Shown: in pieces, positions 20,949 to 23,330 of the stretch | Numbering within the stretch: position 1 is the first letter of the stretch | Layout: the number at the start of each line of letters is the position of its first letter | Assembly (NCBI GenBank): GCA_028712895.1 | Contig: JAQTPL010000014.1 | Span: 1-39,594 of the forward strand | Length of the DNA stretch: 39,594 nt | Reading direction: 5' to 3' | Origin: a bacterium | GTDB lineage: Bacteria; CAYTYR01; UBA6262 | Made by a program: the position numbers and the translations under genes | Notes under the pieces: generated by a model | The model's database searches: none | Seen by the model: the letters and a program-made list of their open reading frames with translations, nothing else | What the model was told of the DNA's origin: nothing

Positions 20949-21866
20949 CTATAAGCGATAAACAATATTTTCTATGCCGTTATTGGCGCCGCATTCCAAA
21001 ACCTGGGTAGCCTGGTGATGCAGGTCAGACAGGACCTGCCCAATCTCTCCCGGTTGCTTATGTGTAAACACTTCCAGCATAAAAATGTCCCGGTAGCCGA
21101 TCTCTTTTAGCCCGGTCATGATGCCGGCCCAAGGTACCCGGCCATCACCAGGCGGCAGGTGATCATCAAATTGCCCGTGATTGTCAGATAAATGCAAGCT
21201 AATGACCTTTTTATTAAAACTTTTAAGCATTCCTAACGGGTCCTGCGTCAGGTTCGCGTGTGATGTATCAAAACAAATGCCCAGGTTTTCCGTGTAGAGA
21301 TCATCGATGATCTGGTTCAGGTCGTGGGCCTGGCCGCCCAAGAGGTGCGGCAGCAGATTTTCCACGGCTAGCCGTACATGCTTGATTTTGCAATAGTTAA
21401 TTAATTCATACAGGCTTTCCTTGCACTTGTTCAACCGCCGGTATTTTTCATCCTGGTTATTCAGGTCAAAAGCCTGCATGCTGGGATGTACAATAGCGAT
21501 CTCACCGGAAAGATAATTCAGGACATCAATGCCTTTTTTATATTCCCAAACTGCGTGGACCCGCGTTCCTTCATCCAGGCTGGAAATATCCATACCCGGC
21601 CACACCGGCAAATGCAGGGAATGCACAAAAATGCCAAACTCTTTCAATTTATTGCGCAGGTTATAAGAATGGATCCTTTGCTGCCAGATCTCCAATCCTT
21701 CTTTTAAAAGAAAATTCGTATGATTGACCGCGATGTTGCTGGGCATGCCCCATTCAATGGTATCCAGGCAGATCTCGATCACTTCAAAGCCCGCGTCCTT
21801 GATCACTGGCAAATACGGAATTACATCATGGTCGTGAAAAAATCCCGTAGAAAGACCTAATTGCAC
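20949..21866 (-). CDS. TIM-barrel protein, sugar isomerase / AP endonuclease 2 superfamily
   Basis: A 305-residue (beta/alpha)8-barrel of the xylose-isomerase-like superfamily. Metal ligands are visible along the strands: VHSLHLP, IVHPSM, LAVENLL, CFDTSHANL, SLHLSDNHG, DDHLPPGDGRVPW and MLEVF. These fit a divalent-metal sugar-phosphate isomerase or epimerase. The same fold and much of the same ligand set occur in endonuclease IV, so a DNA-repair role cannot be excluded. The start is GTG at 21866 with GGAG five bases ahead; an out-of-frame ATG two bases upstream leads to a stop after three codons. It lies 9 bases after the primase-like gene and 17 bases before hisS, so all three are likely one operon. 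Confidence 0.8.
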   Translation of the reverse strand: MQLGLSTGFFHDHDVIPYLPVIKDAGFEVIEICLDTIEWGMPSNIAVNHTNFLLKEGLEIWQQRIHSYNLRNKLKEFGIFVHSLHLPVWPGMDISSLDEGTRVHAVWEYKKGIDVLNYLSGEIAIVHPSMQAFDLNNQDEKYRRLNKCKESLYELINYCKIKHVRLAVENLLPHLLGGQAHDLNQIIDDLYTENLGICFDTSHANLTQDPLGMLKSFNKKVISLHLSDNHGQFDDHLPPGDGRVPWAGIMTGLKEIGYRDIFMLEVFTHKQPGEIGQVLSDLHHQATQVLECGANNGIENIVYRL

Positions 21867-21875
21867 ATGATCTCC

Positions 21876-23264
21876 TTACAGCTTATAGTGAGATAAATTA
21901 AAACCACACCAGGGTTTGACACAGTAGCCCTTTTCCTGGTGGGAAATACAATTAAGATCCTGTTCATCATCAAGATGGTCAGCGACTAATCCGGCAAACA
22001 GGCGCACATAAAACTGCGCCCGGGTACAAGCGTCATATTTAGACCAAAAATTACCCCAGTGGAAATCCCGTTCATACTTCGAGCGGATCAGACCGGCGAT
22101 ATGTTTGGGATGCCAGTTCATTTTGGTCAGGGTACGGACGATCAGCTGGATATTTGTTGGTTTCAATAAATTATTGTTCGGATAGCGCAAAGCGTGCGCC
22201 GCGCAAACCGGCAGGACATCAATATTGAAATAATCATAACTGCGCGACCATTCTTCCGGCGGATGCGAATATTCCCGGTCATAATACCGGTGAAACTTAT
22301 ACAGCTGTGAATGTTTGTAACTATTGATCAGCTTGTTTAACTTCTGGGTCACATCCGGGATAGTGGTCTCTACCTGCGCGGCGTAGATAGCAGATTTATT
22401 AAAATCCTGGCGTAATTCTAGTAATTCTTTCAGGCTCAGGTCGATCCTGGGCAAGGTGATCTGTATCGGGGTTGATTCAGCCACTAACTTGGTATATTTT
22501 TGTTGCTGGACTTTATGCTTTTGGTATAAGCTGAAGGCACAGCGCACGTCGCGGATATTCATCGGATCGCCATACATGGACAAGTCGAGGTTGATCGCCT
22601 CGCGCCCTTCCCCGCCTTTGCCCACGGCTGTATCCGTACAAACCACCGGTATTTTTGTATGCAGCCTCACTTCCTTGATCACTAAATGCGATATATATTC
22701 CAAAATCCGGCCCATGCCGTCATGCGCCAGGTTAAAACGCAAGGCCTCCAGGTTAGCCAGGGACAAGTCACGGGTCGAGGCCAGGTTATCGCTTAATTTT
22801 CCTATTTTTTCCAAAGTCTTATTGGCTTTAGATTCTCTTTTTACCTGGAACGCAAAATGATATCCCTGGCCGGTCATAATGACGAGAGGAAATATATCCA
22901 AACGCTGAAAGACTTTCAGGATGGCTTTATATACCACTTCCATTTTGGTGAAAACTTCTTCCGGCTGCAAATACACTTTACCGGGGAAATCCATATTAAA
23001 ATATTCAATATCCAGGACGCCCACCGTATAATTCAGGTCGCTTACCGAACGGAAGATATCCAATCCTTTTCCCAGGATCCAGTCAAACTTATCCTTGGAA
23101 GTGGAAATAAAATTGCGCGCGTGGATATCCTCTTCCTGCAGCGCTGTCCCGTATCCTACCAGATACTGGGCGGAAAAACCGTCGGGGTCATGAGCTTCAC
23201 CCCCGCAATATTCGGCTATCCGTTTACGTACGTTGGCATTACGGTAAAACTCTTTATCTGGCAT
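21876..23264 (-). CDS. Archaeo-eukaryotic primase-like protein with cysteine-rich, PriL-like C-terminus
   Basis: A 462-residue cytoplasmic protein of unknown function. Its motifs occur in the order expected for AEP/PrimPol enzymes: acidic motif I VGVLDIEYFN (Asp85, Glu87, the D-x-E form), motif II MTGQGYHFAF (Gly132, Gly134, His136), motif III INLDLSMYGDP (Asp227), then R-x-x-R-x-x-x-S in RDVRCAFSLYQKHK (238-251), resembling the R-x-x-R-x-x-x-S-L-H stretch of primase small subunits. The C-terminal ~110 residues hold LPVCAAHAL (Cys354), helical NWHPKHIAGLIRSKY, and cysteines 413, 439, 448 and 453, reminiscent of the iron-sulfur domain of PriL. ATG at 23264 after AGGA; it has its own promoter. 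Function, possibly priming or repair synthesis, is inferred. Confidence 0.6.
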   Translation of the reverse strand: MPDKEFYRNANVRKRIAEYCGGEAHDPDGFSAQYLVGYGTALQEEDIHARNFISTSKDKFDWILGKGLDIFRSVSDLNYTVGVLDIEYFNMDFPGKVYLQPEEVFTKMEVVYKAILKVFQRLDIFPLVIMTGQGYHFAFQVKRESKANKTLEKIGKLSDNLASTRDLSLANLEALRFNLAHDGMGRILEYISHLVIKEVRLHTKIPVVCTDTAVGKGGEGREAINLDLSMYGDPMNIRDVRCAFSLYQKHKVQQQKYTKLVAESTPIQITLPRIDLSLKELLELRQDFNKSAIYAAQVETTIPDVTQKLNKLINSYKHSQLYKFHRYYDREYSHPPEEWSRSYDYFNIDVLPVCAAHALRYPNNNLLKPTNIQLIVRTLTKMNWHPKHIAGLIRSKYERDFHWGNFWSKYDACTRAQFYVRLFAGLVADHLDDEQDLNCISHQEKGYCVKPWCGFNLSHYKL

Positions 23265-23301: not shown

Positions 23302-23330
23302 ATTATAGCTTTATTACTGTTTTTTTGCAA
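23302..23330 (-). promoter_or_regulatory. Sigma70-type promoter of the primase-like - TIM barrel - hisS unit
   Basis: Reading the minus strand: TTGCAA (23325-23330), a spacer of exactly 17 bases, then a perfect TATAAT (complement of 23302-23307). Predicted start is near 23295, about 30 bases before the ATG at 23264, with AGGA in between. It lies just after the hairpin terminator of the upstream glycosyltransferase. Confidence 0.8.

Follow-up and report, generated by a model that had tools for sequence, protein, structure and literature searches.

A predicted bacterial primase-polymerase with a PriL-like cysteine tail, encoded on chromosomes and probably serving DNA repair

Which task could a primase-like protein of the AEP superfamily fulfil when its gene resides among housekeeping genes on a bacterial chromosome? 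According to a survey, bacterial AEPs are found nearly always on mobile elements, while PriL is nearly confined to primases replicating chromosomes (PMC5862659). This picture does not accommodate a family on bacterial chromosomes in which a Prim-Pol core and a PriL-type cysteine tail appear to be united within a single chain of 460 residues. A gene of this family, here called AEP-A, occurs in the window, i.e. the whole analysed stretch of 39,594 nucleotides, and is present as a single copy in its genome. The original prediction, which was made from the sequence alone, placed it at 21876-23264; these coordinates are correct and the reading frame is genuine, with the addition that it lies on the minus strand, where the start codon ATG is at 23264 and the stop codon ends at 21876. 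The gene and its catalytic features are:

21876..23264, minus strand: AEP-A gene, predicted single-chain primase-polymerase with PriL-CTD-like tail (462 aa ORF, about 41 homologues, AlphaFold2 pLDDT 92.1)
22365..23264, minus strand: catalytic Prim-Pol (AEP) domain, residues 1-300 (VIA-align Z 17.7 to Prim-PolC, rmsd 3.5, 252 residues)
23004..23012, minus strand: motif I, D85-x-E87 (D in 41/41; at position 87 E in 38/41 and D in 3/41)
22857..22874, minus strand: motif II, TGQGYH, residues 131-136 (H136 in 41/41)
22584..22586, minus strand: motif III, D227 (41/41)
22515..22553, minus strand: R238-D-x-R-x-x-F-S-x-x-Q-K-H250, likely nucleotide-binding stretch (R238, R241, F244, S245 and K249 invariant)

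Searched as a single sequence against Pfam, NCBIfam, PHROGs, PADLOC and PDB, AEP-A yielded no significant match, neither Pfam nor NCBIfam contained a match indicating membership among the LigD polymerases, and the family profile found nothing significant among the PDB sequences. Since the libraries searched hold no covering family model, copies of AEP-A are probably annotated as hypothetical proteins. Among 41 aligned homologues the residues D85, T131, G132, G134, Y135, H136, D227, R238, R241, F244, S245 and K249 are invariant. All motif residues named in the original prediction (D85, E87, G132-x-G134-x-H136, D227, R238, R241, S245) are present at the positions given and, save for the E/D exchange at position 87, none of them varies in the family. 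The stretch from R238 to H250 presumably resembles the one that follows motif III in archaeal PriS. The AlphaFold2 model of AEP-A, which was built from the 41-row alignment, reached a pLDDT of 92.1 and a pTM of 0.92. In a Foldseek search with this model Prim-PolC came out on top with a probability of 1.00, though with an E of only 0.012. Prim-PolC was also the best solved match in VIA-align, ahead of LigD polymerase (Z about 15), CAPP (Z 13), PriS from P. furiosus (Z 11.8), RepB' and S-2L PrimPol (Z 8-9) and human PrimPol (Z 6.4); the viral structure library gave weak AEP-like matches only. Conserved motifs I-III together with the Prim-Pol fold of the model (alpha/beta plus RRM-like) place AEP-A in the AEP/Prim-Pol superfamily. 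Because the model matches Prim-PolC, LigD polymerase, CAPP and PriS, the AEP core is settled at the level of the modelled structure, and the initially proposed PriS-like catalytic domain is borne out by model, fold comparison and invariant motifs alike; the enzymatic activity is predicted.

The C-terminal part of the protein comprises the following features:

21879..22364, minus strand: all-helical PriL-CTD-like domain, residues 301-462 (AlphaFold2 pLDDT 90.3 when modelled alone; hhalign to archaeal PriL)
22203..22205, minus strand: Cys354 in LPxC, predicted Fe-S ligand 1 (39/41; the exceptions are a truncated copy and L052)
21948..21950, minus strand: Cys439, predicted Fe-S ligand 2 (conservation in the alignment)
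21921..21923, minus strand: Cys448, predicted Fe-S ligand 3 (conservation in the alignment)
21906..21908, minus strand: Cys453, predicted Fe-S ligand 4 (conservation in the alignment)

Five tail cysteines had been pointed out, and all of them exist; however, C413 falls outside the conserved set, being a cysteine in only 3/41 homologues, whereas C354, C439, C448 and C453 occur in all full-length copies but the archaeal outlier L052. Their spacing is C-x84/85-C-x8-C-x4-C in nearly all complete copies, with x5 in L035 and x77 in L050. The outlier (L052:9995-11209), a homologue from Thermoplasmatota, has kept the AEP motifs and is devoid of the four tail cysteines; its genome possesses a PriL of its own (L053). 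PriL sequences of Thermoplasmatota display the pattern PPC ... C ... G-x-C ... C ... HPL-x-YY. Using hhalign with a profile of 31 archaeal PriL CTDs, the four cysteines came into register with the whole AEP protein (E 2.8e-4) and aligned in order with the tail (E 7.6e-5), and the inclusion of the B paralogues described below gave a score of 40.1, a probability of 84 and an E of 7.9e-6. Over these tail comparisons the scores ranged from 34.3 to 40.1 with probabilities of 62-84, while column-shuffled PriL profiles attained a maximum of 22.3 (200 shuffles) or 23.2 (150 shuffles), and 19.3, 13.1 and 13.3 were obtained with the reversed PriL profile, the TIM barrel and the N-terminal half, respectively. 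In a single-sequence scan Pfam DNA_primase_lrg was weakly matched by two family members (E 0.02). The tail modelled alone is entirely helical; Foldseek and VIA-align with this model revealed no PriL among the Foldseek candidates, nor was a PriL N-terminal domain recognised in AEP-A. The originally suggested PriL-like C-terminus is supported by sequence: the profile alignment superposes all four cysteines, but the tail-only fold search did not retrieve PriL. For the latter reason the relation to the PriL-CTD, which we regard as supported, is one of sequence, and an Fe-S cluster on C354, C439, C448 and C453 is a prediction. Cys20 (window 23205-23207, in AEYCGG), which lies outside the explanation offered by the Fe-S model, is conserved in 38/41 homologues.

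AEP-A had been described as preceding hisS and having its own promoter. The gene directly next to it is a different one, and hisS and aspS come only after it:

20949..21866, minus strand: TIM barrel of the EndoIV superfamily (AP_endonuc_2), 305 aa, in the same predicted operon (PF01261, E 1.1e-29)
23302..23330, minus strand: promoter-like site TTGCAA-17-TATAAT (10/12 consensus; weak evidence taken alone)

The TIM-barrel gene is located 9 bases downstream of AEP-A, whose stop codon overlaps its ribosome-binding site. The promoter-like site does exist ahead of AEP-A (23330-23302), but the number of such sites across the region does not exceed chance. A survey of the neighbourhoods of homologues, as had been proposed, disclosed the EndoIV-superfamily protein as a conserved downstream partner that was overlooked before: it directly follows the AEP gene in 15/42 loci, which belong to several phyla and show varied contexts. 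AEP and TIM distances are correlated (r 0.93, 13 loci, Mantel p 2e-4), which shows a co-inheritance to be anticipated in part from the common history of the species.

The nine invariant residues of the TIM barrel (H85, H127, E169, D200, H203, H225, D234, H236 and E265) align with the nine metal ligands of EndoIV. The window protein remained below the cut-offs of the curated nfo model (16.8 bits, cut-off 129.65) and of the model for the CbiR phosphodiesterase (48.5 bits, cut-off 105), the latter being matched by 13/13 TIM barrels tested. The nearest solved relative by profile is MJ1311, whose deposited entry describes it as uncharacterized, and sugar epimerases are also closer than EndoIV. In a host panel of 37 genomes, which included the own genome and G003, a relative without AEP match, canonical EndoIV was detected in 20 and is absent from the own genome of AEP-A; several hosts with the AEP-TIM pair also carry a true EndoIV. 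We rejected the notion of the TIM barrel as a simple stand-in for missing EndoIV, because nfo is present in some paired hosts and absent in others. The own genome encodes another TIM barrel of the EndoIV superfamily, unlinked to AEP-A (L096, G000:C63:14386-15219), a similar one was found in G003, and in some genomes such an unlinked paralogue scores lower than the AEP-adjacent protein. In one Chloroflexota genome a gene of the RtcB-like RNA ligase family is situated just upstream of the AEP-TIM pair (L045:8297-9844).

Another 12/42 loci (L014, L015, L019, L020, L022, L023, L025-L028, L032 and L048) harbour a second AEP gene, B, directly downstream of A; no locus was seen in which both the TIM barrel and B adjoin A. 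The B sequences form a single supported branch (100/96) that is separate from all A sequences. They have T-x-S-G-Y-H as motif II compared with T-G-Q-G-Y-H in A, keep the catalytic residues, and retain the four cysteine columns in 11/12 cases. B is a divergent but apparently active paralogue. In Tritonobacter, a DrmC/PLD-like protein is encoded directly upstream of such a tandem pair (L022:2051-3442).

With regard to the cellular role, DnaG was found in 35/37 genomes including the own one, Ku in only 2/37, and a PriL of PF04104 was not found in the own genome. From the distribution of DnaG and Ku we conclude that AEP-A is neither the replicative primase of its host nor part of NHEJ, and both candidate roles were rejected. 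The resident priming function considered at the outset is accordingly unlikely if bulk replication is meant. A Ku gene does occur in the own genome (L114, G000:C46:9077-9577) and is absent from two genomes of the same genus that were searched.

The scan of contigs identified 41 AEP loci, with relatives in the same genus, the same class and distant phyla. Hosts belong to Elusimicrobiota, UBP18, Auribacterota (Tritonobacter, Erginobacter, Euphemobacter), Hydrogenedentota, Lindowbacteria, Schekmanbacteria, Methylacidimicrobium and kin, Chloroflexota, a record labelled Woesearchaeota and one Thermoplasmatota, and the AEP tree groups largely by phylum. Searches of phages, plasmids and viral contigs (IMG/VR) found no homologue. 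Recurrent flanking families are of the housekeeping type, such as LpoB, acyltransferase-like DUF374, hisS and glycosyltransferases; neither integrases or transposases nor ATP-dependent ligases are among the 25 commonest Pfam families of the neighbours, and helicase, RPA-like or replication genes are missing among the recurrent ones. The remark that the locus bears no mobile hallmark hence applies to the whole family.

Several known systems resemble AEP-A in some respects. The best structural match of its catalytic domain, mycobacterial Prim-PolC and the LigD polymerase domain, includes with Prim-PolC an enzyme that is likewise chromosomal and has been described as acting in repair alongside a partner of the EndoIV type (PMC5663958); both differ by the lack of a detectable sequence match and of the Fe-S-type PriL-like tail, and Ku is rare in AEP-A hosts and a ligase does not belong to the recurrent neighbours. 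PolpTN2 from the Thermococcus plasmid pTN2 likewise combines PriS-like and PriL-like parts and four cysteines in one chain (PMC3973330). However, it is plasmid-borne, comprises 923 aa, contains PriCT-1 and a winged helix besides both PriL domains, and is without the catalytic His (PMC3973330, PMC5862659), whereas AEP-A is chromosomal, has 462 aa, keeps His136 and shows the CTD-like part only. Archaeal and eukaryotic PriS-PriL have motifs I-III and the four-cysteine PriL-CTD pattern in common with AEP-A, but consist of two separate proteins, are replicative, and give a weaker PriS fold match. CAPPs, too, have an AEP core, behind which comes a PriCT-like C-terminal domain whose cysteines are conserved (PMC8211822); these proteins are found beside cas1/cas2 and contain TPR, RT or helicase parts, and nothing of this kind was seen with AEP-A. 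PolpTN2 being the known fused PriS-PriL, the chromosomal single-chain bacterial form appears, judged from sequence, to be new here, and so are the EndoIV-superfamily partner and the tandem paralogue. A search of the open-access literature brought up no paper on this family, which is apparently undescribed.

Due to its frequent adjacency to a gene for a DNA-repair-type, nuclease-like protein, AEP-A is probably a resident DNA-repair enzyme. We put the probability at roughly 0.55 that this chromosomal enzyme is a primase-polymerase for repair or gap filling whose tail is a PriL-CTD-like Fe-S module, with a TIM-barrel partner in about one third of the loci. The N-terminal domain would act as a two-metal nucleotidyl transferase with the metals on D85, E87 and D227, while H136 and the stretch R238...K249 would keep the incoming nucleotide in place. 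In Pri2, it is the CTD to which the triphosphate of the initiating nucleotide is bound (PMC10345425), and PriX is able to stand in for this CTD without Fe-S (PMC5700102). By analogy, the helical tail of AEP-A, with an Fe-S cluster bound via its four conserved cysteines, might dock the initiating nucleotide or a 5' phosphate end, so that a single chain could start or fill short stretches on a damaged template. It would then work in DNA maintenance, i.e. gap filling, short-patch excision repair and possibly repriming, rather than in bulk replication or NHEJ. Mycobacterial Prim-PolC fills gaps of 1-3 nt, best with EndoIV in reconstituted repair, and base excision repair can be reconstituted from it together with EndoIV and LigC (PMC5663958). 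In roughly one third of the loci the co-transcribed EndoIV-superfamily enzyme may clean or cut the damaged 3' end, and in 12/42 loci AEP-A may act with the second, apparently active paralogue. The further-reaching view of an undescribed, largely vertical bacterial repair module, a two-enzyme unit consisting of the single-chain PriS-PriL-type enzyme and either an EndoIV-like nuclease or a paralogous primase, is tentative and stays somewhat short of even odds.

Against the repair reading count the lack of PriL in the search with the tail model, the closer profile relation of the TIM barrel to MJ1311 and sugar epimerases than to EndoIV, its score below the nfo cut-off, the true EndoIV of several paired hosts and the many AEP loci without TIM partner. 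These loci would suit a bacterial counterpart of eukaryotic PrimPol, which reprimes past lesions at stalled forks with the tail initiating and the TIM barrel incidental or separate. Such a role would also explain why a self-contained catalytic domain is joined to an initiation-type module, which a gap filler like Prim-PolC does not need, and the tandem paralogue could indicate a two-enzyme priming unit. Nevertheless, we consider it unlikely, though it deserves attention: the closest solved fold is that of gap-filling Prim-PolC and not of PrimPol (Z 17.7 versus 6.4), the recurrent neighbours comprise no helicase, RPA-like or replication gene, and the TIM linkage across phyla would require another reason. 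The matches of all tested TIM barrels to the CbiR model, below its cut-off for the window protein, the RtcB-family gene at L045 and response-regulator diguanylate cyclases upstream of two loci (L016, L017) could be taken as hints to RNA repair or nucleotide signalling, where the AEP would extend RNA ends or make a small nucleotide and the TIM barrel would be the phosphodiesterase of the product. Yet the RtcB and cyclase neighbours are confined to single lineages, an RNA-repair gene does not recur, and the PriL-like module points to template-bound priming, which makes this assumption improbable.

It is doubtful, and only slightly less improbable than a role in RNA repair or signalling, that the AEP core is correctly assigned while the tail is an unrelated helical domain binding zinc or Fe-S with four convergent cysteines. 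The failure of Foldseek and VIA-align to find PriL with the tail alone, and hhalign probabilities that are not near 100, would be compatible with convergence; on the other hand, the alignment keeps all four cysteines in order, together with the PPC at the start and C-x-C-x-C ...L..Y at the end, and the shuffled, reversed, TIM and N-terminal-half controls score far lower. Finally, a domesticated or hidden primase of a mobile element or defence system, of the PrimPol-PV1 or CAPP type, was already disfavoured and seems very improbable: the usual location of known bacterial AEPs (PMC5862659), the patchy spread over phyla and the DrmC-like gene near one locus speak for it, against which stand the absence of homologues from the searched phages, plasmids and viral contigs, the housekeeping neighbours, the lack of a helicase fusion and a tree mostly following the phyla.

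If the further-reaching view of an undescribed repair module is true, PriL-type Fe-S primases would be native to the chromosomes of bacteria, too, in addition to archaea, eukaryotes and plasmids. The family offers a compact, expressible system for asking about the role of the primase Fe-S domain, and its gene neighbourhoods suggest that a primase and a nuclease form a repair pair in phyla of which little is known. Within the family, a Lindowbacteria genome carries two unlinked AEP copies, L050 and L039, of which L050 is very divergent with 37% identity.
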